The notes beneath the pieces were generated by a model, which saw only the letters and a list, made by a program, of their open reading frames with translations, was not told where the DNA came from and did no database searches. Position numbers and translations under genes: made by a program. From Tildeniella nuda ZEHNDER 1965/U140 (GTDB lineage: Bacteria > Cyanobacteriota > Cyanobacteriia > Leptolyngbyales > Leptolyngbyaceae), in NCBI GenBank assembly GCA_019358895.1, contig JAHHIG010000004.1, positions 186,001 to 250,000 of the forward strand: a DNA stretch of 64,000 nucleotides. The letters run 5' to 3'. Shown one piece after another: positions 24,478 to 40,343 of this stretch (position 1 is the stretch's first letter; each line of letters begins with the position of its first letter).

Positions 24478-26163
24478 ATGCAACAAGTCTGGATGCAACG
24501 AGATTACTGCGATCGGGTTTCCTCACGGCTGTTGGTGCTGTTTGTTCAGTCTCTACGATCCCAGCGACTACCCTGGGCAGCGCTATCGGCAATCTGTCTA
24601 GTGATGTCAGCAGAATCAAGTCTCGCTGCTAGCCGCAAGGATATTGACTTGCAAGTGGGCGTGGAGCAGCGCTTTGGTAGCAAACCAACGGACGCGTTAA
24701 CGTTGCAAGCACCGTCGGGCGATCGCCTCACCTTCCGCTTTGAGACAGAGGGTAAACCGCAAACCGTCACTGGCACCAGCGCGACGTTAGAGATTGTTCA
24801 GCAACCGCTACCCGAACCAGCGCTACAAGAACGTGTGGTACTCAGCACCCATCGCAGTTTTGAAAGTGCTGAAGATAGTGCCAATCGCTGGCTTGCTCAG
24901 GGCATTCCGGTAGAGCTTGCCCAACCACAACGCTGGCAAGTATGGGCAAAGCGAGACGTTTATTCTACGCCTCTGTTGCGCCGTCTGCTGCTGCAAAGCT
25001 TGCAAGAACATGGCATTCAAACAGCTTACATTGATACGCAAATTTTGCCCAAGCAGCCGCGTGCATCGCTGGTGGTCAATGGCTACCGCTACACCCGCGA
25101 TCGCATCGAAATCTTGTCGGGACAAGGTGCCGTTCGTGTCATCGAAAAGAGTGGCGACAAAACCCGTCAACTTTATGCGGGTAGTTTGCGCGTCCAGCCT
25201 AATGCCTATGGCACGTATACCCTTGTCAATCAGGTGCCGCTTGAAGCGTATCTGCGTGGCGTGGTGCCCTATGAGATTGGCACGTGGGCAGTGCAGCCAG
25301 TGCTACAGGTACAGGCAATCCTGGCGCGTACCTATGCTCTCCGCAACCTGCGACGGTTTGCGATCGATGGCTACCAGCTTTGCGCCGATACACAATGTCA
25401 GGTTTACAACGGTCTCACAGGCGCTGATCCAGCGACCGATCGCGCGATCGCTGCCACGCGTGGCAAAGTGTTGACCTACAACAACGAACTGGTAGATGCC
25501 GTCTACTCTTCTTCTACAGGCGGGATCACCGCGCCCTTTAACGATGTCTGGTCGGGTGCCGAGCGTCCCTACCTGCGGGCAATCATCGATTCAGTCGCAA
25601 ATCCCTGGGATCTAGCGCGTCAGAGTTTAGCCGATGAGAAGAACTTTCGCCGCTTTATCAGCCAAACCAAAGGGTTTAACGAAGCGAGCGAGGAGATGTT
25701 TCGGTGGCGGATCGAGAGCCGTATTGAAACGCTCAACCAGGACATACGGCGCTATCTGACGACGATTAAAAGCCCGCTAGCGACCTTTAAAACGATTCAA
25801 CGCCTGACTGTGACGCAGCGATCGCCAGCAGGGCGAGTGATCAGACTAACCGTCACAACTGACGCTGGCAGCATAGAGCTGGAAAAGGACAATATTCTAG
25901 TAGCGCTTTATGCTCCCAACAGTACCCTCTTTTACCTGGAACCACTCTACGGAGCAAACCGAGTATTAAAAGGTTATACCTTTGTTGGCGGTGGTTTGGG
26001 TCATGGTGTCGGACTGAGCCAGACAGGTACTTATTACTTGGGCAAGTTAGGCTGGTCGAGCGATCGCATCCTCAGCTTCTATTTTCCTGGCACCCAGCTA
26101 CAGCCTATTAGCAACGCCATCACCTTCTGGCGCGATGCTAATGGTAAGGAAAGCGGTAGTTAG
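24478..26163 (+). CDS. SpoIID/LytB domain protein
   Basis: VPLEAYLRGVVPYEIGTWAVQPVLQVQAILARTYAL, YSSSTGGITAPFNDVWSGAERPYL, GGGLGHGVGLSQTGTYYLGKLGWSSDRILSFYFPG. Confidence 0.92.
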   Translation: MQQVWMQRDYCDRVSSRLLVLFVQSLRSQRLPWAALSAICLVMSAESSLAASRKDIDLQVGVEQRFGSKPTDALTLQAPSGDRLTFRFETEGKPQTVTGTSATLEIVQQPLPEPALQERVVLSTHRSFESAEDSANRWLAQGIPVELAQPQRWQVWAKRDVYSTPLLRRLLLQSLQEHGIQTAYIDTQILPKQPRASLVVNGYRYTRDRIEILSGQGAVRVIEKSGDKTRQLYAGSLRVQPNAYGTYTLVNQVPLEAYLRGVVPYEIGTWAVQPVLQVQAILARTYALRNLRRFAIDGYQLCADTQCQVYNGLTGADPATDRAIAATRGKVLTYNNELVDAVYSSSTGGITAPFNDVWSGAERPYLRAIIDSVANPWDLARQSLADEKNFRRFISQTKGFNEASEEMFRWRIESRIETLNQDIRRYLTTIKSPLATFKTIQRLTVTQRSPAGRVIRLTVTTDAGSIELEKDNILVALYAPNSTLFYLEPLYGANRVLKGYTFVGGGLGHGVGLSQTGTYYLGKLGWSSDRILSFYFPGTQLQPISNAITFWRDANGKESGS

Positions 26164-27936: not shown

Positions 27937-28956
27937 TTGAGTGCGCTGCTGATGACTGGAACGGCTAACTTTCTTTCGCGTCCGCTACAGGTTGGTTTAG
28001 TTGGTACAGGTTATGCGGCGAAGCTTCGATCGCAAGCCCTGCAAGCAGAACCACGAGCGGTATTAGCTGCTGTTGCCGGACATACGTTAGAAGTAGTCCA
28101 GGCGTTTAGTCAAACTTACGACGCAAAACCGATCGCCTCCTGGCAAGAACTCGTGCAGCGATCGTCCCTCGATCTCATCATCATCGCGACGGTGAATCGA
28201 GATCATGGCGCGATCGTTCGTGCCGCTCTAAAAGCAGGAAAGCACGTCATCGTGGAGTATCCTTTAGCGCTAGACGTTGCAGAAGCAGCAGATCTGATTG
28301 CGTTGTCAAACGCTCAAAACAAACTGCTGCACGTCGAACATATTGAGCTTTTAGGTGGTATGCATCAAGCGCTCAAAGCCTCGTTGCCTGCGATCGGCAC
28401 ACCCTTTTACGCCCGCTATGCCACCATCAAACCTGAACGTCCCGCACCCCAACGTTGGACATATCACCCAGAGCTATTCGGGTTTCCGCTGATGGGTGCC
28501 TTGTCGCGGCTGCATCGTTTCATCGATCTGTTTGGTGCCGTAGCAACTGTGAATTGTCAGATGCAGTTGAGCGATCGCCATGCATCCACTGATCCCCACC
28601 ACACAACCTGTTACTGCACGGCTCAATTGCGTTTTCAGTCGGGTTTGCTGGCAGAAGTGGTTTACGCCAAAGGTGAAGCGATGTGGCGACCAGAGCGCAA
28701 AATGGAAGTACATGGCGAAAAAGGTGCCCTCATTTTTGATGGGGATCAGGGACTACTCGTGCAGGCAGAGGGCGAAGAACCGATCGCGCTGGCGACTCGT
28801 CAGGGTCTCTTTGCGAAAGATACCGCAATGGTGCTGGATTACTTAATTGACGGTACACCGCTTTATGTCACACCCGAAACGAGTTTGTATACGTTGAAAG
28901 TGGCAGAGGCAGCACGACGATCGACAGAAATCGAGCAGACGATCGTCGTTGAATAG
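27937..28956 (+). CDS. Gfo/Idh/MocA family oxidoreductase
   Basis: VGLVGTGYAAKLRSQALQAEPRAVLAAVAG, AALKAGKHVIVEYPLALDVAEAADLIALS. Confidence 0.88.
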   Translation: MSALLMTGTANFLSRPLQVGLVGTGYAAKLRSQALQAEPRAVLAAVAGHTLEVVQAFSQTYDAKPIASWQELVQRSSLDLIIIATVNRDHGAIVRAALKAGKHVIVEYPLALDVAEAADLIALSNAQNKLLHVEHIELLGGMHQALKASLPAIGTPFYARYATIKPERPAPQRWTYHPELFGFPLMGALSRLHRFIDLFGAVATVNCQMQLSDRHASTDPHHTTCYCTAQLRFQSGLLAEVVYAKGEAMWRPERKMEVHGEKGALIFDGDQGLLVQAEGEEPIALATRQGLFAKDTAMVLDYLIDGTPLYVTPETSLYTLKVAEAARRSTEIEQTIVVE

Positions 28957-28969
28957 ATTCTGATTCCCA

Positions 28970-29599
28970 TCAGCGCTTCAGTAATTTGAAGGCAACTTGT
29001 CCCAACTGTTGACCATAGGCAAGCTGTACCAGCAAAAACATAGCCGGTTCAACAAAACGCGAATTCTTGAGTGAGCCAGCATCTACGACTTCAACATCAA
29101 TTTCACTCAGGAGAGCGGCTACAATCTGTTTTGCCTCTGGGTCGTCGCCTGTGTAAAAGATGGTGGCAATCTGGTCGTCAAAACGCTGCGATGGTGAATT
29201 TAAGACTTCAGCAAACAGCGGCAGCGCTTCGACTACACGGGCACCCGGCGCGAGTTTAGCAATTTCCTCCGCAGCAGAGGTGGTGGTGCCAACGGCTAAC
29301 CCACTCATATCAGGCAACAGTGCATTCACACAACTGAAGAGAATCTTACCGTCGAGTGACCCTGCGGCTTTGAGCGCATCGTCGATCGCGCCGTAGGGCA
29401 CTGACAGCAAGACCACATCGGCAAATTGCACCGCCTCAGCAGGTGTGCCCACCGTGGCGTTATCACCGATCGATTGGGCAATTTTTTCTAGCTTTGCGGG
29501 ATCACGGGAGTAGCTGAACATCAGTTGGTGTCCGTTCTGCGCCCAGAATTTGCCTAAGCTACTACCCATGTTTCCCGCACCAATAATGCCGATCTTCAT
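28970..29599 (-). CDS. NADPH-dependent F420 reductase-like oxidoreductase
   Basis: MKIGIIGAGNMGSSLGKFWAQNGHQLMFSYSRDPAKLEKIA, DVVLLSVPYGAIDDALKAAGSLDGKILFSCVNAL. Confidence 0.82.
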   Translation of the reverse strand: MKIGIIGAGNMGSSLGKFWAQNGHQLMFSYSRDPAKLEKIAQSIGDNATVGTPAEAVQFADVVLLSVPYGAIDDALKAAGSLDGKILFSCVNALLPDMSGLAVGTTTSAAEEIAKLAPGARVVEALPLFAEVLNSPSQRFDDQIATIFYTGDDPEAKQIVAALLSEIDVEVVDAGSLKNSRFVEPAMFLLVQLAYGQQLGQVAFKLLKR

Positions 29600-29770
29600 G
29601 GTTGTTTTTCTGGTAGTTTGATGGCTCTAATTACTGTGAAAACGTTCAGCCGCTACACCATCTACATTTGATTCAATTAAAAAATGGAGTGGATAGTTTT
29701 GGTAACGCGCTGTTAGAGTTTTCGGATAGTCGCACCTGATTCAACTATTCGATTTGGGAAAGTTGTAGAT

Positions 29771-29785
29771 TTCGGATAGTCCGAA
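29771..29785. promoter_or_regulatory. Candidate operator TTCGGA-TAG-TCCGAA with an additional half-site 50 bp away
   Basis: Perfect 6-bp palindrome 29771-29785; direct repeat TTCGGATAGTC at 29721-29731; inverted ACTATTCGA at ~29744; upstream of 28970-29599. Confidence 0.5.
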
Positions 29786-29853
29786 CCGTAGATTTTTGTC
29801 CAAAACGTGCGCTTACTACGCTGAGCTTCGATGGCTTCGACCATGCTTCAGAA

Positions 29854-30537
29854 CTAGCTATTGGCTGCGGCTTCTCTGATCACGTCCAAAACTTCCTTTG
29901 CGTGAGAAATCATTGCAACGTGGCTTGATTCCACAACTGTCGTCGTTGCGCCCATTCGTTTTGCTGAATCATGCTGTAACTCTGTTGGAACAGCTTGATC
30001 ATTGCTGGCTACGATGTACCAACTCGGCTTATTTCTCCATGCCGGAGAATCTACTTTCGCTCCTAGCAACGATACTGATGGCGCAATTTGAGTCGTGTAT
30101 ATCAATGCTGATTGTTCTGCTACGAGGTCGTCTGCAAACGTTTTTTGTATGCCTTCTTTGGAAAGCCAAATAAAGCCGTCTTGTTCTTGAAAATACTGCG
30201 ATGCAGGCGCTGGCTCGTACTTGCTCAGCAGATCTATAGTAGTTTCGCCAGCATCAGGAGCAAGCGCGGCAATATAAACTAAACCAGAAACTCGTTCATC
30301 ATTTCCGGCTTCAGTAATGACAAAACCGCCCCACGAATGACCAACTAAAAGACATTGACCTTCGATGCGGGCTAAAGCGCGTTTCGTCGCGGTAACGTCA
30401 TCAGCTAGTGAGGTAAGCGGGTTTTGAACAGCAATCACTTCGTACCCTTCCGCCAACAAGGTCGGAATTATTTCACTGTAACAAGACCCATCTGCCCAAA
30501 AACCGTGAACCAACACAACATTTTTAACTTTACTCAT
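29854..30537 (-). CDS. Alpha/beta hydrolase
   Basis: VLVHGFWADGSCYSEIIPTLLAEGYEVIAVQNPLTSL, LLVGHSWGGFVI nucleophile elbow. Confidence 0.88.
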   Translation of the reverse strand: MSKVKNVVLVHGFWADGSCYSEIIPTLLAEGYEVIAVQNPLTSLADDVTATKRALARIEGQCLLVGHSWGGFVITEAGNDERVSGLVYIAALAPDAGETTIDLLSKYEPAPASQYFQEQDGFIWLSKEGIQKTFADDLVAEQSALIYTTQIAPSVSLLGAKVDSPAWRNKPSWYIVASNDQAVPTELQHDSAKRMGATTTVVESSHVAMISHAKEVLDVIREAAANS

Positions 30538-30604
30538 GATTGTTTCTCCTTCTTGTCAATCTATTCATACCGTTTGTTTGTACGATTCCACGTTCGTCTC
30601 ATGC

Positions 30605-31054
30605 TTATTTAAGAATTAGTGGTGTTAGCACTGGAGCCAGCAGCATTTCAAACTCCAGGTTCGTTGCGCTGACGACATTCTCAACAATCTTGCCATCACG
30701 TAAACGCATGATGTGTGCCTCAATCAAGGTAATGATTCGTCCCGTTGCAGGCACACCAAAAAAATCTTTGGTATGTTTTTGTGGCGATCGAAAGCGAACC
30801 ACCACGCGATCGTTTGCCGCAAAAATATCTTCTATCACCAGGTCAGAAACAGGTGGAAAGGCATCGTAAAAGGCACTAAATACTTGCTTGTACTCTTCAC
30901 GCCCATCAATGGGACCTGTTGGCTTTAGCCCAGTAATCGCCTGCACATTTTCATCTAGCACTGCTTCAGCCATACTCATGTCACCTTTGCCAAGAAATTG
31001 CTCAATAAACGTACGGGCAACAGCCAGATTTTGCGTTTCAAGTTCGGTCGTCAT
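30605..31054 (-). CDS. SnoaL-like ester cyclase
   Basis: FIEQFLGKGDMSMAEAVLDENVQAI...GPIDGREEYKQVFSAFYDAFPPVSDLVIEDIFAANDRVVVRFRS. Confidence 0.82.
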   Translation of the reverse strand: MTTELETQNLAVARTFIEQFLGKGDMSMAEAVLDENVQAITGLKPTGPIDGREEYKQVFSAFYDAFPPVSDLVIEDIFAANDRVVVRFRSPQKHTKDFFGVPATGRIITLIEAHIMRLRDGKIVENVVSATNLEFEMLLAPVLTPLILK

Positions 31055-31090
31055 AATTGCCTCATTGATTTTGCAGCGAAACTAAGCCTA

Positions 31091-31254
31091 AGAGGGTGTT
31101 TGAAAAGGTATGGTCTGTAGCGTTAAGCACTCAGCGATCCCCCCTAGCCCCCCTTAAAAAGGGGGGGAAAGGCTTTTGTCGTCCCCCTTTTGAAGGGGGA
31201 TTGAGGGGGATCTAGCTTTTTGCTACTAACAGAAGGACTTTTTAAACATCCTCT
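31091..31254. mobile_element. TIR-bounded repeat element family 4, copy 1
   Basis: AGAGGGTGTTTGAAAAG ... CTTTTTAAACATCCTCT (17-bp TIR, 2 mismatches), TA next to both ends; core contains CCCCCTTAAAAAGGGGGG / CCCCCTTTTGAAGGGGG palindromes. Confidence 0.7.
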
Positions 31255-31350
31255 AAAGTGCCGTCATACAGAACAGCCATGTCAAGTCTTACTCATACGG
31301 TTTGTATCTTGAGGTCAAACTCTAGCGCTTCCAACTCTGCTCTCGTCGGA

Positions 31351-32841
31351 TTAGCTATGAAACCCATAGGCTTGCCAGTTTTGCAAGATGCGCTCCTGTA
31401 GGTCTTTGGGGTAGGCACCCGTGAACGAACTACGCTGTGGCAGTTTGTCACCCCACTCGTCAGGTGGCAAGCAGTTGTAGATCACTTTCGTTGTGTGCAT
31501 GGACATCTTTTCGCTTTGTTCAAGAAACGCCACGAGTGGGTTGGTGGCTTCATCGTTAAAGATGACTTCGCCTTTACTGCCAGGATAATTGCGGGTAGCA
31601 AACGCCCAGACTACTTCTTGAGTGTTGGTAATGTCGATGTCGTCGTTTACCACGATGTATTTTGGTGTACCCATCCCTGCTTTGGTTTTGAACAAAACCT
31701 CACCCAGCTTGTAACAAAGTTCAGAGGCGCTGGTGTTGGGCATCTGTTGTCGCCAGTTTCGCTCCATCGCGATCGCGTACCAGTGGTTAGCGCTCTCAAA
31801 CGGACTCCATGCCATCGCAACCGGATAGCCTGCTGTGCGGAGAGTATAAACAATTTCGGCAGCGTTGGGCACCCCCCAAGCCGTATGATTTTCCTCTACA
31901 GGTTCACCTGCGACCGAAATGGGCAGAATGGGCTGATTGCGATAGGTCATTGCCGTGACGTGATACACAGGCTTGGGGCTGCTTTGTCCAGTCCAGAGGT
32001 AGCCTGCGTATTCTCCCATTGGTCCTTCGGGCACGGTGTCAGCGATCGCGATCGTCCCCTCAAGTACAATTTCTGCGGTTGCAGGCACTTGCAAATCAAC
32101 CGTTTCACACTGTACAACGTCGATCGGCTCACCAAAGTAGGCACCCGCATAATCCGCCTCGCTCACATAATCTGGTAAAGGCATCCCGCCCACAAAGGGC
32201 AAGAAGGGTTCGACCCCTAGCGCCAGTGCAAACGGCATAGGTTTGTTGATGTCGAGCCAGGTTTGCCGCACCATCCCGATATGCTGATTAGGCGCAATGA
32301 TGCCTGCCATCCGATTGCGATCGACCAGCATGGTGCGGGCGATCGACCAATTTGTCCAGCGTTTATCCGGGGTTTGAGCAACGATGATGCCAAAAGTATT
32401 GAGATAGCGTCCGCCATCACCGTCATGCAGGAGTGGAGTGGGTAAGCGCAAGAGATCAACCTCATCGCCAATTAGGATGTTCTCTTTACAAGCGCCTGTT
32501 GCAACCAACTGAGGTGGAAGCAACGATCGCGATCGTGCCTGAACGAGTGCTGCAATGATCTCCCTACCCGTTGAGTCTGGAGGCAACCCCAGCGATAGCG
32601 CGATACGGGAAAGGTAGAGTCTGGGCTGGCGGCTGACTCCTCCAGGTGCGCCTAAAACCCGAAAGCCCTTCTCGATTCCCTTGATTGTGTTGAACAATGG
32701 CGCGGGCGCTCCGGTTTCGTAGCAGCGACGAGCAATTGCGCCGATCTCCAACTGCCAATTGACCGCTCGATCAATTTCCTGGACTTCACCGATTGCAGCC
32801 AGCGCCTCAATGTAGTCGCGTAAGCTCTTGAGATGATTCAT
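31351..32841 (-). CDS. UbiD family decarboxylase
   Basis: LRDYIEALAAIGEVQEIDRAVNWQLEIGAI, GPMGEYAGYLW, VVNDDIDITNTQEVVWAFATR. Confidence 0.92.
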   Translation of the reverse strand: MNHLKSLRDYIEALAAIGEVQEIDRAVNWQLEIGAIARRCYETGAPAPLFNTIKGIEKGFRVLGAPGGVSRQPRLYLSRIALSLGLPPDSTGREIIAALVQARSRSLLPPQLVATGACKENILIGDEVDLLRLPTPLLHDGDGGRYLNTFGIIVAQTPDKRWTNWSIARTMLVDRNRMAGIIAPNQHIGMVRQTWLDINKPMPFALALGVEPFLPFVGGMPLPDYVSEADYAGAYFGEPIDVVQCETVDLQVPATAEIVLEGTIAIADTVPEGPMGEYAGYLWTGQSSPKPVYHVTAMTYRNQPILPISVAGEPVEENHTAWGVPNAAEIVYTLRTAGYPVAMAWSPFESANHWYAIAMERNWRQQMPNTSASELCYKLGEVLFKTKAGMGTPKYIVVNDDIDITNTQEVVWAFATRNYPGSKGEVIFNDEATNPLVAFLEQSEKMSMHTTKVIYNCLPPDEWGDKLPQRSSFTGAYPKDLQERILQNWQAYGFHS

Positions 32842-32869
32842 GAATTAAAGGTTTCAGGGGTTTGGTCTT

Positions 32870-33042
32870 AGAGGTTGTTTGAAAAGTGTCTGGCGGTTAA
32901 AACCGCGACTACGTAAACAAAGTCCGCCTGCGCGGACGACCGCAGAGTAAGGGTTTTATCACCTGCAACGGCAGGTTTTGCCTCTGTAGCCGCGACTTCA
33001 GTCGCCAATGCTACAAGCATCTGGACTTTTAAAACGTCCTCT
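32870..33042. mobile_element. TIR-bounded repeat element family 4, copy 2 (different core)
   Basis: AGAGGTTGTTTGAAAAG ... CTTTTAAAACGTCCTCT TIRs matching 31091-31254; core GGCGGTTAAAACCGCGACTACGTAAACAAAGTCCGCCTGCGCGGAC... unrelated to copy 1. Confidence 0.7.
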
Positions 33043-33064
33043 TAGCTCAATCGTCGCGATCGCT

Positions 33065-34654
33065 TCAGGACAGGTCTACCCACACAGTCTTCGTTTGCAG
33101 GTAGAACTCCAGCGCTTCCCAGCCTTGCTCTCGCCCATAGCCGCTCATCTTGTAGCCACCAAACGGCGCAGACGGATCAAAATGACCGTAGGTGTTCACC
33201 CAAACCGTGCCTGCTTTTAACCGTGCCGCTGCTTTGTGTGCCTTTTTGATGTCGCGGGTATGCACCCCAGATGCCAAGCCATACTGGTTGCTGTTGGCAA
33301 TGCGAATGGCATCGTCAAACCCATCAAAGGGAATGATGGCAAGAATCGGACCAAAGGACTCTTCGCGGGCGATCGTCATTTCACTGTTGACATCTGCAAA
33401 CACCGTCGGCTCGACAAAGTAACCTTTACCTGTGCCAATGTCTGCGGCTTTGCCCCCTGCAACGAGACGGGCACCATCTTGCTTACCCACTTCCATGTAG
33501 CTGAGGACTTTATCGTATTCACTCTTGTTGGCGATCGGACCCATCTGGCTGGTTGAATCCAGTGGATCGCCCGGTTTAGTGTCTAGGGCACGCTGCCGAA
33601 CGCGATCAACTACTTCGTCATAGATCGATCGCTCCACCAACATGCGCGACCCGGCATAGCAGATTTCACCCTTGTTGTAGAACATCCCGTCATACGCGGT
33701 TTGGGTTGCGGCATCCAGATCGGCATCGGCAAAAATGATGTTGGCACTCTTGCCGCCCAACTCCATCGTCAAATGCTTCAAGGTATCTGCCGAGTCTTTG
33801 ATCACCCGAATCCCGCTGGCAGTAGACCCTGTAATCGCTACCTTTTCAATGCCGGGATGAGTGGAGAGGGCATTGCCAACGGTGCCACCGGGACCGGGTA
33901 CAACGTTAAACACACCGGGCGGCACACCCGCTTCTGCCATGATTTGAGCGACTTTCAGCGCTGAAAGGGGCGTTGCCGATGCAGGCTTGTGGATGAGCGT
34001 ATTACCCGCCGCAAGGGCAGGGGCAAACTTGCTAATGGAAAGAATGAGTGGAAAATTGAACGGTGTGATGGCAGCGACAACCCCCAGCGGTTCGCGCAGG
34101 GTATAGGTGTGTAGACCTTTGGTGGTTTGCTTCACCGAACCTTCAATCTTGCTTGCCCAGCCTGCGTAGTAGTGAAACATCTTAGCAAGGTGGGGAATGT
34201 CTACACTCATCGAATCGGTAAACAGCCGCCCCATTTCTTTAGCTTGCAGAAAAGCAAGTTCCTCACCGTATTTGTGGAACAGGTCGCCAACTCTCCACAG
34301 AATTTCGCCGCGATCGTGTCCACTCAACTCACCCCAATCTGACTCAAACGCACTATTTGCCGCTTCGACCGCAGCTTCGACATCTTCAACCGTGCCCTCG
34401 GCAAGCTGAGCGATTTCTGCTTCAGTGGTGGGGTCAATGACCGGAAACGTCTTGCTGCTGGCGGAATCGCGCCACTCGCCATTGATATACAGCTTCTTAA
34501 GCGAAATGGGAAAGTCTGGGCGGACTGCGGTAGATGTGGTTGCCGCATTGCTATCGGTGGTCTTTGTTGGAGCATCTGATTGCTCGATACCAAGCTGACC
34601 ATCGCAGATCTTCATAAGTGCTCTCTGTAACGCTTTTTGAAGAGTAGGAGACAC
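33065..34654 (-). CDS. NAD(P)-dependent aldehyde dehydrogenase
   Basis: YINGEWRDSASSKTFPVIDPTTEAEIA, LTMELGGKSANIIFADADLD, NKGEICYAGSRM, PFGGYKMSGYGREQGWEAL. Confidence 0.93.
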   Translation of the reverse strand: MSPTLQKALQRALMKICDGQLGIEQSDAPTKTTDSNAATTSTAVRPDFPISLKKLYINGEWRDSASSKTFPVIDPTTEAEIAQLAEGTVEDVEAAVEAANSAFESDWGELSGHDRGEILWRVGDLFHKYGEELAFLQAKEMGRLFTDSMSVDIPHLAKMFHYYAGWASKIEGSVKQTTKGLHTYTLREPLGVVAAITPFNFPLILSISKFAPALAAGNTLIHKPASATPLSALKVAQIMAEAGVPPGVFNVVPGPGGTVGNALSTHPGIEKVAITGSTASGIRVIKDSADTLKHLTMELGGKSANIIFADADLDAATQTAYDGMFYNKGEICYAGSRMLVERSIYDEVVDRVRQRALDTKPGDPLDSTSQMGPIANKSEYDKVLSYMEVGKQDGARLVAGGKAADIGTGKGYFVEPTVFADVNSEMTIAREESFGPILAIIPFDGFDDAIRIANSNQYGLASGVHTRDIKKAHKAAARLKAGTVWVNTYGHFDPSAPFGGYKMSGYGREQGWEALEFYLQTKTVWVDLS

Positions 34655-34718
34655 AACCCTCAGTCGTCACGATTGATTCTTGCGTTTTTTATGGCAATCT
34701 TGCGGTGGCAGCAGTTCC

Positions 34719-35615
34719 TTACAGGCGCTCTCGATATGCCCTGGGCGTTATGCCTGTAAACTTGCGAAACTGAACGGTGAATTGACTTTGATCCGCGAAG
34801 CCAACACGATGCGCGATCGCACTCATCGACAAAGCGCTGCTCTTGAGCCATACCTTTGCCCGCTCGATTCGCTGTTGCAAGACGTACTGATACGGCGAAA
34901 TGCCCATCGACTGCTTAAACAAGCGGGCAAAGTAGTACTGGCTCATGTCTAGCTCACGGGCGATCGCGGCTAAGCTAAGCTCTTGATCGAGATGGTCGTT
35001 AATGTAGTCGATCGCCTGCTGCAACTTGCGCTGAGATAAGCCCCGGTACTCTTGTAAAGGCTGCTGCCAGGTGGAATACGATCGCAGCAGATGGATGGAG
35101 AGTGCTGTCGTTAGTGAATCGACAAAGAGCCGACTGCCTACCCCGTTTGAGGTTATTTCAGACTTAAGCGCCTGCCCAATTTGGTAAATGAGTGGATCAG
35201 GGGTGGCAAACTGAGGGATGAGTTCAATGCGATCGACATTCACCGCTTCATAAGCCACCTGGGCGAGATGATCAGGCTCAAGAAACAGTAAGGTAAAACT
35301 CCCTTCACGATCCCAGACTGCCTGATGCTGCACGGTTGCTGGCACAAGCACCACCTGTGGGGAGCTAAGCACTTCACTCTGTCTGCGCCCATCCAACACC
35401 CGCTCCGACTGCACCTCACAGTCAGCTTCGTGAACCATCAGCATATGCCGGGTATGGGCGTACTCAGGTGTTTCCCAGGCAGGTTGGCGGTGCTGCTGGA
35501 GGTAAATACCATCCCACGCAAAGTCCTGGCTTGTCAGCAGCGGTGGTCGTGCTAAGACCTGCAAAACCTCACTTTCCTGAGTGAAGTCAACAGTGAGTCG
35601 ATTCGGTTCCGGCAT
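34719..35615 (-). CDS. AraC family transcriptional regulator
   Basis: C-term ELSLAAIARELDMSQYYFARLFKQSMGISPYQYVLQQRIERAKVWLKSSALSMSAIAHRVGFADQSQFTVQFRKFTGITPRAYR. Confidence 0.93.
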   Translation of the reverse strand: MPEPNRLTVDFTQESEVLQVLARPPLLTSQDFAWDGIYLQQHRQPAWETPEYAHTRHMLMVHEADCEVQSERVLDGRRQSEVLSSPQVVLVPATVQHQAVWDREGSFTLLFLEPDHLAQVAYEAVNVDRIELIPQFATPDPLIYQIGQALKSEITSNGVGSRLFVDSLTTALSIHLLRSYSTWQQPLQEYRGLSQRKLQQAIDYINDHLDQELSLAAIARELDMSQYYFARLFKQSMGISPYQYVLQQRIERAKVWLKSSALSMSAIAHRVGFADQSQFTVQFRKFTGITPRAYRERL

Positions 35616-35698
35616 GACGGCTATTATTAGAAAGGCGCTTACATCGTTTTGGTTCTGATCATGGCATCAGTTTCAACACATTGATGTCATCAGCTTGA

Positions 35699-35800
35699 CA
35701 ACTTATCTACGTCCTGTCCGAAGCAAGTTTGCACATTTTAAAGGTAATAGAGGCAGCACGGCGATCGGTAGAAACCGGGCAGACTACTGCACTGGAGTAA
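35699..35800 (+). pseudogene. Degraded 3' end of a Gfo/Idh/MocA paralogue
   Basis: Translates ...LIYVLSEASLHILKVIEAARRSVETGQTTALE*, aligning with LYVTPETSLYTLKVAEAARRSTEIEQTIVVE* at the end of the 27937-28956 gene. Confidence 0.8.
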
Positions 35801-35897
35801 TATATCCCTGATGCTGAGCTAAATAACTCAGCGCAAACGAGAATGTTTCTCCGCAAGCTTCAAGAGAGGTAAATTTGGGTGTCCAATGCAATGGTGC
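35784..35897 (-). pseudogene. C-terminal remnant of a second gene, convergent with the Gfo/Idh tail
   Basis: Minus strand reads APLHWTPKFTSLEACGETFSFALSYLAQHQGYITPVQ* with no start; truncated at a GGTGCGTT...AACGCACC palindrome; family not identified. Confidence 0.45.
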
Positions 35898-35920
35898 GTT
35901 TACTTTGTAGTAACGCACCC
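35893..35920. repeat. Palindromic repeat fragment (GGTGCGTT/AACGCACC)
   Basis: ggtgcgtttactttgtagtaacgcaccctac; resembles the core of family 2 elements. Confidence 0.6.
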
Positions 35921-36151
35921 TACAAGAGCGGCGATCGTACTGTTTGGCTTGAGGTAGTGGCTTGCACTCCTTTACCGATGCGCTGTGAGAGTGGCGGGCG
36001 TTGCCTGAGTCGCTTCTGTCACACTAAACCCAGAGAGAAACTGTAGCTTAGATTAAGGTCAGCGAACTGGTGCTAATCTGTCATCTTAGTTTCAACTACT
36101 CGTCTTTCAGCAACGGCTCCTAGCGTATGGTTACTTCTGCTAACAAAGGTC

Positions 36152-38560
36152 TCAGTTTAGCGGTAGATCGTCGTCATCGCCCGGCAGGATGCGAACGCGG
36201 GCATACTTTAGCCCCGATACACCTTGGAGTGGCTGCACAGTGCCGCGATCGATCTGACTATCCACCCAGCCTTCACGCATCAGGTAGCGGAGATATTGCT
36301 GATATTCTGCCCACTCTTCCTCGGTAGAAAAGACCAGGGTGAGCATTCCCGGTTGCGTGATGCGAGTATTGGTTTGTTCGTCGATCGCCTTATCAATTCG
36401 CTTTTTGACGATTTCGTAGCGGGTATCGCGGCTCCCGCGCACGTCAAACATGCGCTCTGTAGTTTCGTCGTGGAAAATGTCAACGGTTGCATCCTGCACG
36501 AGAACAAGATGCGTCACTTGCATATGGGTACTGTGCTTTTCGAGCAGGCGAAAAGCAGTTCTGGCACAGTCACAGACGGCACGAAGCTGCTCATAGCGTA
36601 GACTTCGGAGTTGAAAGCTGCCAAATTTAAGGTCGATCGATGCCCCAGCATAAAGCATGTGATCGATCCCATCGGTTGCCTCAATGTCGCAGTAGTGAGG
36701 CGTGATCCGCTGCATTGCTTCCTGCCAGCGCTCCCAGGTTTCCCGTAGTAGCACGTTGATGGTATTTACCATGTTGTCATAGTGGGTTCGCGCTCGATAG
36801 ACGCATTCGTGATCGTTGGCGCAAGCCTCATGGTAGGCGTTGATCGCTGCGATCGCCGTTTCCCCGCATTGTGCAAAATAGTCAAAGTAAATTTCTAGAT
36901 GGTCACGCAGATAGCGCAGACGACTTACTTCAGCATCGACCGTCACGCCTTCCTGCATCTGGCGAATGTGTTCCAGCAAATCCAACCGCAGTTGTTCGCC
37001 TAGCGCTGTTGCTTTGGCGTTGCAGGCAGAATCAACGACGGTCAGCGCGAGATGAAACTGCTCCAGCAAATCGGCTTGAATGGCAAGATTGCGTTCGTTA
37101 GACGAGCCTCGAATATCGGAAATACCGTACAGGGGATACACGTTGGTGAACGCGATCGGCTCTGGTGGTAAGCCCATGCCCCGACGCTCGGCTTCCTGCA
37201 AAAAGCGCCACTCGACAGCGGGGTGAATGTTGGTAATCAACCGCTGTTGTACCAGTTGCCGCTGGGCAGTCGTCAGCGATCGCGTGAAGGCAGGAATGAG
37301 CTGCTCGGCATGGCGACGGTCTAAGGCATCAAACGTATAGGGTCGATCGCTCAGTAGAGCCACAACGCCAACGGCACCGGGCGGCTTGAGGGCTGGGCTT
37401 GCAGCTTGAAGCGGAGCGCTAGGGTCTAATGCAGCGCCTTCCTGATCGCCTGTGCCAATACTGGGTGCCAGCAGCGGGATGAGCAACAAAGAGCGCACAC
37501 CCATTTTGAGCAGTTGCCGTCCGCCATCGGTGCGGGGATCTTGAGCCAAATCAGCAACGGCATACACCTGATTGGTGCGGAGAGCGTGCATGAAATGGGA
37601 CTCTTGCAACGACTCTAGAGGATATAGCGTTGTGTGTGGCTCGTCGCTTAACGATCCCATAAACAACCGCACCTGATCGGTTTCAATACTCAGTAACAGC
37701 GTATTCTGGGCGCGAAAGAGCGATCGCAGTTGCTGATTCAGTTCGCTAAATTTATGGGTACGCAGAATGGAATCGCGATCGATCAGCAGTTGCGTGATGC
37801 GGCGGATAATCTCTCGTTCGGTTACGTCCAGTCCTTCCAGCAGCAGCCAACCTTCGGTCTGGTAATACTCTAGCTGCTGTTCGAGTCGTTCGCACTGCAT
37901 GGGATCAGCCAGGGCAGCTTCGATCGCAGGTAGCGCCATTGCTTGAAGACTCAGCGCCGCATCATCAACTTGTGTGTTTAGGCGCGTAAGTTGCAGTTGA
38001 TCGGAGCGCAACCAGAACTCAACGTAGCGTGGTTCAGGGTGTAGCGGGCTTCGCAGCGAAATCATCACGGGTTCGTCTAGCAAGCGAGAACCTTGCAAAT
38101 CGACGTGATAAAACTGTTGCAGCACTCGATGCAGTAGATGTCGGCGATACAGCCGCTGGATTGCCCCGTTGTCTGCTTCATTCAGCAAGTGCTGGAGTAC
38201 CTGCCCCAATTCTCCCTGTGCGCCTGTGGTGGTCAGCCCCAGAAGCTGACAGAAGTAATCATTAGCGTAGTGCAACGTCATCGTCGTCGGGTCGATCGTG
38301 GCAATAAGGAGCCGACTGCACTGCTGAAAATAGCTTAACCAGGCGTAGGTATCTGCTGGAGCAGAGGCGATCTCTGGCTGAACGGTCAAAGTCGTTGACG
38401 GCGATTCTGGTTCAACGGTTGGGCGATCGGGCGATTGAATCAACGTGCTAACACTCTGAGTCACGGCTTCATGCTCGTTCAAGGGCATATTCGTCACTGA
38501 CTCAGAAGAATGCATGGTAGTTTGCCTCAAATTGATGAACACTTGCAAGGTGAGTAACAC
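36152..38560 (-). CDS. PAS/GAF-type sensory protein, cyanobacterial
   Basis: 802-aa ORF; GAF-like segment (NQVYAVADLAQDPRTDGGRQLLKMGVRSLLLIPLL...GVVALLSDRPYTFDALDRRHAEQL); start uncertain. Confidence 0.7.
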   Translation of the reverse strand: MLLTLQVFINLRQTTMHSSESVTNMPLNEHEAVTQSVSTLIQSPDRPTVEPESPSTTLTVQPEIASAPADTYAWLSYFQQCSRLLIATIDPTTMTLHYANDYFCQLLGLTTTGAQGELGQVLQHLLNEADNGAIQRLYRRHLLHRVLQQFYHVDLQGSRLLDEPVMISLRSPLHPEPRYVEFWLRSDQLQLTRLNTQVDDAALSLQAMALPAIEAALADPMQCERLEQQLEYYQTEGWLLLEGLDVTEREIIRRITQLLIDRDSILRTHKFSELNQQLRSLFRAQNTLLLSIETDQVRLFMGSLSDEPHTTLYPLESLQESHFMHALRTNQVYAVADLAQDPRTDGGRQLLKMGVRSLLLIPLLAPSIGTGDQEGAALDPSAPLQAASPALKPPGAVGVVALLSDRPYTFDALDRRHAEQLIPAFTRSLTTAQRQLVQQRLITNIHPAVEWRFLQEAERRGMGLPPEPIAFTNVYPLYGISDIRGSSNERNLAIQADLLEQFHLALTVVDSACNAKATALGEQLRLDLLEHIRQMQEGVTVDAEVSRLRYLRDHLEIYFDYFAQCGETAIAAINAYHEACANDHECVYRARTHYDNMVNTINVLLRETWERWQEAMQRITPHYCDIEATDGIDHMLYAGASIDLKFGSFQLRSLRYEQLRAVCDCARTAFRLLEKHSTHMQVTHLVLVQDATVDIFHDETTERMFDVRGSRDTRYEIVKKRIDKAIDEQTNTRITQPGMLTLVFSTEEEWAEYQQYLRYLMREGWVDSQIDRGTVQPLQGVSGLKYARVRILPGDDDDLPLN

Positions 38561-38876: not shown

Positions 38877-40343
38877 ATGTTTGAAGCACTTTCCGATCGC
38901 CTGGAGTCTACCTGGAAAAAGCTGCGCGGTCAGGACAAGATCTCTGAAACGAACATCAAAGACGCAGTGCGTGAAGTGCGACGGGCGCTGCTCGAAGCGG
39001 ATGTGAACCTCCAGGTTGTCAAAGACTTTGTGGCAGCGGTCGAAACCAAGGCACAGGGTGCAGCGGTGATTGCCGGAGTGCGCCCCGACCAGCAGTTTAT
39101 CGAAATCGTCCACAACGAACTCATAGCGGTGATGGGCGGCGATCATGCGCCTCTGGCAAGGGCGGATACTGCCCCGACGGTCATTTTGATGGCGGGTTTG
39201 CAGGGCACGGGTAAAACCACTGCGACCGCGAAACTGGCACTGCATTTACGCAAAGAAAACCGCTCTACGCTGCTTGTGGCAACGGATGTATACCGCCCAG
39301 CGGCGATCGACCAGCTCATCACCCTCGGTCGGCAAATTGATGTACCCGTCTTTGAATTGGGCAACGATGCGAACCCCGTTGAAATTGCTCGTCAGGGGGT
39401 CGAAAAGGCAAAAGCAGACGGCATCAATACCGTCATTATCGACACTGCCGGACGCTTGCAAATTGACGAAAGCATGATGGCAGAACTGGCGCAGATTAAG
39501 AACACTGTGCAGCCCCACGAAGTCTTGCTGGTCGTCGATGCCATGACGGGGCAAGAAGCCGCCAACCTTACCCAGACCTTTCACGACCAGATTGGCATTA
39601 CGGGTGCCATTTTGACCAAGATGGACGGTGATACACGGGGTGGTGCAGCGCTTTCAGTCCGGCAAATCTCCGGTCAGCCCATCAAATTTATTGGTGTGGG
39701 CGAAAAAGTGGAGGCATTGCAGCCCTTTTATCCCGATCGCATGGCATCGCGCATTCTGGGTATGGGTGATGTCCTCACCCTCGTCGAGAAGGCGCAAGAA
39801 GAAGTAGACCTGGCAGATGCCGAAAAAATGCAGGAGAAAATTCTCTCTGCCAAGTTCGACTTCACCGATTTTCTCAAGCAAACCCGGATGCTCAAAAATA
39901 TGGGTTCGCTGGGCGGGATCATGAAAATGCTCCCTGGAATGGGCAAGATCAGTGATGAACAGCTCCAGCAGGGCGAAAAGCAACTCAAACGTGCCGAAGC
40001 GATGATCGGCTCTATGACCGTTCAGGAACGCAAGAATCCTGAACTGCTGTCGGGTTCACCGAGCCGTCGTCGTCGTGTGGCGCGGGGTGCTGGCTATGGC
40101 GAAAGCGATGTGAGCAAGCTGGTGAGTGATTTCCAAAAAATGCGATCGCTCATGCAGCAAATGGGGCAAGGACGCTTCCCCGGTATGGGCGGGATGCCCG
40201 GTATGGGTGGAATGCCAGGAATGCCCGGTATGGGCGCTGCTCCCAGCGGTAACCGTTCACCTCAACCGGGCTGGCGCGGTTATGCGACAGGAAGTAACAA
40301 GAAGAAAAAGGACAAGAAGAAAAAAGGCTTTGGAAATCTGTAG
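38877..40343 (+). CDS. ffh: Signal recognition particle protein
   Basis: LMAGLQGTGKTTATAKLA, DVYRPAAIDQL, DTAGRLQIDE, TKMDGDTRGGAALS, Gly/Met-rich C-terminus. Confidence 0.97.
   Translation: MFEALSDRLESTWKKLRGQDKISETNIKDAVREVRRALLEADVNLQVVKDFVAAVETKAQGAAVIAGVRPDQQFIEIVHNELIAVMGGDHAPLARADTAPTVILMAGLQGTGKTTATAKLALHLRKENRSTLLVATDVYRPAAIDQLITLGRQIDVPVFELGNDANPVEIARQGVEKAKADGINTVIIDTAGRLQIDESMMAELAQIKNTVQPHEVLLVVDAMTGQEAANLTQTFHDQIGITGAILTKMDGDTRGGAALSVRQISGQPIKFIGVGEKVEALQPFYPDRMASRILGMGDVLTLVEKAQEEVDLADAEKMQEKILSAKFDFTDFLKQTRMLKNMGSLGGIMKMLPGMGKISDEQLQQGEKQLKRAEAMIGSMTVQERKNPELLSGSPSRRRRVARGAGYGESDVSKLVSDFQKMRSLMQQMGQGRFPGMGGMPGMGGMPGMPGMGAAPSGNRSPQPGWRGYATGSNKKKKDKKKKGFGNL

Follow-up and report, generated by a model that had tools for sequence, protein, structure and literature searches.

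In Tildeniella nuda ZEHNDER 1965/U140 an intact gene for a Gfo/Idh/MocA oxidoreductase (hereafter Gfo) is followed by a cassette of six genes on the opposite strand and, beyond these, by a short piece that resembles the 3' end of the same gene. The locus lies in a stretch of 64,000 nucleotides (positions 186,001 to 250,000 of contig JAHHIG010000004.1, our contig C27; hereafter the window) of the genome under study (G000; 6.1 Mb in 38 contigs). A first-pass annotation of the window had described it as an accessory island delimited by a duplicated oxidoreductase 3' end, and its positions and families for intact Gfo and the six genes up to the remnant agree with the Pfam assignments (Table 1).

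The duplicated 3' end is real as well. A gap-free and stop-free piece of about 90 nt matches the last 30 codons of Gfo, and the frame that contains it translates as YVLSEASLHILKVIEAARRSVETGQTTALE up to its stop; the tail had been read correctly, except that the leading 'LI' is not Gfo and derives from sequence upstream of AraC that is common to congener G005. The pair 28874-28940 and 35718-35784 ranks first among the direct repeats of the region (76% identity over 67 nt, spacing 6844). Used as DNA query against the whole genome the remnant recovers the Gfo tail (E=2.4e-6), whereas tblastn with the Gfo protein recovers the remnant (41% over residues 290-338, E=0.02). Among congener Gfo tails it matches that of G005 with 80% over 65 nt (E=3e-10) and that of G004 with 78% over 64 nt. 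Of the 90 sites of the remnant 29 deviate from resident Gfo (7, 8 and 14 by codon position), and comparison with the Gfo tails of G002, G004, G005 and G006 gives 27-29 differences each; the Gfo of other species is at least as near to the remnant as resident Gfo is. The direct-repeat boundary that had been proposed is therefore present but neither fresh nor clean, and we read the remnant as real but old. Since the genus-consensus residues ETGQT.ALE are kept in the remnant and lost in resident Gfo, it was not copied from the present end of the resident gene.

Table 1. Features of the Gfo locus, with window coordinates.
Feature	Coordinates	Strand	Basis
Gfo/Idh/MocA oxidoreductase, intact; proposed recombination anchor and left edge of the cassette	27937..28956	+	Pfam PF01408 and PF02894; gene tree
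F420_oxidored-like NADP reductase	28970..29599	-	PF03807
Alpha/beta hydrolase	29854..30537	-	PF12697
SnoaL-like protein	30605..31054	-	PF07366
Miniature inverted-repeat transposable element (MITE)-like element, terminal inverted repeats CTAAGAGGGTGTTTGAAAAG / CTTTTTAAACATCCTCT, internal GATCCCCC palindrome	31088..31258		Repeat analysis
UbiD-family decarboxylase	31351..32841	-	PF01977
MITE-like element, about 180 bp	32867..33047		Genome-wide copies
Aldehyde dehydrogenase (ALDH)	33065..34654	-	PF00171
AraC-family regulator	34719..35615	-	PF12833
AraC upstream region, right cassette junction; G005-homologous up to GACAACTTATCTA	35616..35707		G005 comparison
Gfo 3'-end remnant, 30 codons in frame, stop 35798-35800	35708..35797	+	Alignment to Gfo
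Inversion breakpoint interval, remnant to GAF gene	35801..36151		Reciprocal junction at G000:C37, X1/ilvN
Dispersed small palindromic repeat (GGTGCGTTTACTTTGTAGTAACGCACC) within the breakpoint interval	35884..35941		Genome-wide matches
802-aa protein with weak GAF-domain match; conserved right flank	36152..38560	-	Pfam; congener comparison

The block is accessory, as had been claimed: among 42 genomes of the family UbiD occurs in 3, the SnoaL-like protein in 9 and the reductase in 8. G005 has a cassette beside Gfo in the same orientation, with reductase, SnoaL and AraC at 94%, 93% and 86% identity to G000; between its SnoaL and AraC lie a 98-aa open reading frame (ORF), a DJ-1/SMP-30-like fusion (named from sequence alone) and another hydrolase. 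Congener G003 has AraC (62%), ALDH (91%) and UbiD (81%), and G018, which belongs to another genus, has AraC (62%), ALDH (90%), UbiD (87%) and reductase (81%) in that order. Lateral transfer is supported by the similarity of UbiD and ALDH to those of G018, whose Gfo shares only 64% with that of G000. AraC-ALDH-UbiD-reductase thus looks like a transferable operon, and the G000 cassette looks modular, with SnoaL, a low-GC hydrolase and MITE-like elements added to that operon. The hydrolase (GC 46%, GC at third codon positions 39%) is not found at the same position in G005, has 71.6% DNA identity to a plasmid gene of Gloeothece citriformis PCC 7424 and was probably acquired separately. At the other end of the cassette, the sequence upstream of AraC matches G005 with 78.6% over 84 nt, and this homology ends at GACAACTTATCTA, where the remnant begins. 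No convincing Gfo tail was found upstream of AraC in G005, G003 or G018, with only about 220-290 nt compared for G018 and G005, for which reason the remnant was probably not brought in with the cassette.

With the Gfo protein as query, Leptolyngbya sp. FACHB-321, Stenomitos rutilans HA7619-LM2 and Lyngbya sp. HA4199-MV5 are among the named relatives recovered. The ferredoxin gene and the gene at 24478, both upstream of Gfo, are conserved alongside it across many cyanobacteria. Downstream, the congeners G001 and G002 have ilvN directly after Gfo (spacer of 172-209 bp) and then trmFO, both named by reading the sequences, without a family search; G003 has one extra ORF between Gfo and ilvN; and G004, G005 and G006 have other sequence 3' of Gfo, with ilvN on a separate contig. 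The comparison identifies Gfo-ilvN as the empty site for the cassette. An empty site had been expected in relatives, with the Gfo tail directly abutting the flank at 35.8 kb; it was found at the Gfo 3' end in G001 and G002, but Gfo abutting that flank was seen in no relative, because the GAF flank was apparently brought here by an inversion (see below). As a separate observation, Gfo-ilvN is not intact in four genomes, G000, G004, G005 and G006, and the sequence beside Gfo differs among the latter three (L064 in G004, L060 in G005, L061 in G006).

The phylogeny of Gfo conflicts with that of the species. A tree of seven core proteins groups G000 with G002 and G005 with G006, with support 100 each, whereas the Gfo tree groups G000 with G005 (ultrafast bootstrap 90) and an approximately unbiased (AU) test on Gfo rejects G000+G002 (p=0.012). 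Identity at fourfold sites between G000 and G005 exceeds that between G005 and G006 by 11 points in Gfo and by 4 in CHRD, the gene immediately upstream; the same difference is -8 to -18 for Fdx, GAF, the gene at 38877, ilvN, X1, X2 and X3. The CHRD tree does not group G000 with G005. The pattern suggests that Gfo travelled together with the cassette. It fits the earlier proposal that a segment recombined at Gfo, but the exact point of recombination inside the gene was not located.

The right flank has a different history. Congeners have X1 and X2 after the GAF gene, and in none of them does GAF lie beside Gfo. In G000, X1 (C37:67798-68820, -) adjoins ilvN (C37:70545-71060, +) at a distance of 1.7 kb; on the X1 side 974 nt are homologous to the congener GAF-X1 spacer, ending at L095:11795, and on the ilvN side about 120 nt from upstream of ilvN are kept, with homology from about L095:12426. 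The joins Gfo/GAF (C27) and X1/ilvN (C37) are reciprocal, with an orientation inverted relative to the relatives. Judged by these junctions, the GAF flank joined the Gfo locus via an inversion, an event separate from the entry of the cassette. Other genera with a single-contig chromosome (G010, G027 and G030) carry Gfo and GAF at a great distance and in the same orientation, as an inversion would demand; in G019 they lie in opposite orientation. C27 and C37 are separate, unjoined contigs, and a reciprocal exchange between replicons may have taken place instead of an inversion. The breakpoint interval 35801-36151 has no match in congener sequence downstream of Gfo or GAF, a Gfo tail was sought at the reciprocal C37 junction and not found, and a search for a repeat common to both junctions gave none that was convincing. 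Between the two homologous parts of the C37 junction lie 630 nt (L095:11796-12425) that are unmatched in congeners except for a single 58-nt match in G001.

As the simplest account we propose one-sided recombination, in which the cassette, with AraC outermost, would have been acquired from a related cyanobacterium along with donor Gfo sequence. Homologous recombination within Gfo would have set the left edge and retained an intact gene, while the right edge, just 5' of AraC, would have been joined inside the recipient Gfo about 30 codons before its stop. The native tail would thereby have been displaced to the far side of the cassette, where it later decayed by point mutation. An inversion would have followed, with breakpoints to the right of the tail, in the Gfo/ilvN spacer, and at the 3' side of GAF, placing cassette and tail beside GAF and X1 beside ilvN elsewhere. 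The remnant, the patchy cassette, the empty site, the reciprocal junctions and the conflict between Gfo and species trees are seen in the comparisons themselves, whereas the one-sided route and the order of events are our inference. We put the probability of two such overlapping ordinary events, a Gfo-anchored acquisition with displaced tail and then an inversion, at roughly 0.6.

Several results weigh against this history. The AU test on Gfo does not reject G005+G006 (p=0.17), and a sharp mosaic boundary was sought inside Gfo and none was found, the closeness of G000 to G005 being scattered along the gene. The right junction has at most 4 bp (TCTA) in common and no long homology, and the contig of G005 stops 290 bp past AraC, before any right junction. 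To the right of the remnant, the sequence matches no Gfo-ilvN spacer of the congeners. Finally, the 90 nt of the remnant give no supported phylogenetic position, so that its native origin is deduced from anatomy.

An identical footprint, that is an intact gene, a cassette and a truncated 3' end in direct orientation, would be expected if a circular molecule with a Gfo 3' fragment and the cassette had integrated by a single crossover in Gfo and thereby duplicated its 3' end. The chromosomal 5' part would then complete the copy on the left, and the truncated fragment would be the copy on the right. In one-sided integration tests in E. coli this duplication type predominates, comprising most of the recovered events (109-950 bp; PMC3240628). 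No circular source of the cassette was found, however (no plasmid covers 80%), the cassette genes include no integrase, and with 90 nt this crossover and linear one-sided recombination are indistinguishable; on balance we consider the circular molecule unlikely. It would also be conceivable that the ancestor had a tandem Gfo, or Gfo-cassette-Gfo, and that the second gene lost its 5' 308 codons by a deletion reaching the AraC promoter. The remnant is direct, in frame and diverged about as much as the gene is between species, and the short microhomology at its junction would fit a deletion, but this explanation requires an extra step, and a pair of close Gfo genes is absent from all relatives: of 54 genomes with a match to Gfo, 53 have just one. 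The exception, G004, has a second Gfo on a 3.6-kb contig (L065, G004:C360), either a paralogue or contamination, which has 58% identity to the query and shares 10 of 30 residues with the remnant, to which it is thus dissimilar. We regard a decayed tandem as quite improbable, and the replacement of a tandem paralogue, the other origin offered by the first-pass annotation, is likewise unlikely given the single orthologue elsewhere and the distance of the second G004 copy.

Vertical descent of the cassette from the ancestor of the genus, with loss in G001-G004 and G006 and with the remnant as an unrelated old Gfo fragment, would agree with how far reductase, SnoaL and AraC have diverged from G000 to G005 (83-85% DNA identity), which is within the range of core genes. 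We hold it to be very improbable, because several independent losses would be required, two of which would have had to recreate a Gfo-ilvN spacer of apparently ancestral form, because the Gfo tree itself favours G000+G005 over the species tree, and because UbiD and ALDH are too similar to those of another genus. An artefactual join between AraC/remnant and GAF could be suspected in an assembly of 38 contigs with a high-copy MITE family and a small repeat near the join. Such a misassembly is hardly credible, since it would take two independent misjoins at exactly reciprocal sites on C27 and C37, and no repeat of more than about 80 bp lies at either join.

The repeats of the locus merit a separate description. 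The two MITE-like elements flank ubiD and have terminal inverted repeats that are alike. The type at 32867-33047 has at least 40 copies in G000, with 85-99% identity, and several of these lie less than about 300 bases from contig starts. Copies of the GGTGCGTTTACTTTGTAGTAACGCACC repeat are found on C9 and C28 of G000 and also in congeners.

The cassette probably oxidizes an aldehyde to an acid and then decarboxylates this acid by means of a prenylated flavin mononucleotide (prFMN)-dependent enzyme, a putative role that is assigned from the families of its proteins. UbiD is full length, has its N, Rift-related and C domains (PF20695, PF01977 and PF20696) all above cut-off, and has UbiD-like/Fdc1 decarboxylases as its best PDB relatives; like the enzymes of Fdc1/UbiD-like sets it matches family and Fdc1-like structures over its full length. 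Among the NCBIfam models the general family model TIGR00148 alone is above cut-off, those of BagN/FevL, VdcC and phenylphosphate carboxylase being below theirs, and therefore no specific substrate is supported. What distinguishes the G000 enzyme from known UbiD-family sets is its partners, namely ALDH, AraC and the F420_oxidored-like reductase. The coding sequence of ALDH probably starts with the ATG at 34618. Its best NCBIfam models, neither of which reaches its cut-off, are those of phenylacetaldehyde and betaine-aldehyde dehydrogenases.

The locus is the outcome of a known kind of event, part of ordinary genome patchwork and not a new type of element. In genomic islands of the transfer RNA (tRNA) or transfer-messenger RNA (tmRNA) type, a site-specific integrase inserts the island at the 3' end of a gene. 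The G000 locus is alike in having an intact gene at one edge and a 3'-end fragment at the other, but it has a protein-coding anchor and a diverged repeat. An integrase-borne island was rejected: Pfam assigns no integrase or transposase among the six genes, and in place of near-identical att repeats the best repeat has 76% identity over 67 nt. Closer to the acquisition that we propose is homology-facilitated illegitimate recombination (HFIR), which is described for competent bacteria and E. coli in PMC3240628 and by Meier & Wackernagel (2003, as cited in PMC5361080). The likeness lies in a single homologous anchor, here Gfo, with a foreign block beside it whose other end is joined without long homology; the difference is that HFIR is expected to lose recipient DNA, whereas G000 keeps a short stretch of the anchor gene as a repeat, and that the G000 event is deduced from anatomy alone. 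Displaced 3' ends are also found in Vibrio cholerae type VI secretion system (T6SS) effector loci and orphan Rhs tips, for which an HFIR-like mechanism has been proposed (PMC5361080). There, too, a module anchored in the conserved part of a gene pushes the old 3' end downstream as a fragment, but effector and immunity diversity drives repeated rounds, whereas in G000 the anchor is a conserved metabolic gene with a single remnant and without effector or immunity gene. It is a speculative and rather doubtful extension that the Gfo/ilvN junction would be a recurrent hot spot of integration and breakage in the genus, with Gfo as an integrase-free landing site for cassettes that leave tails behind.

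The locus is an easily read case of a metabolic operon that may have entered a cyanobacterial chromosome without an integrase, with a conserved gene as its homologous anchor and the tail of that gene displaced. It also illustrates that the boundaries of an island can be misread when a later inversion has moved one of its flanks. AraC-ALDH-UbiD-reductase, finally, appears as a patchily distributed, putative decarboxylation operon.

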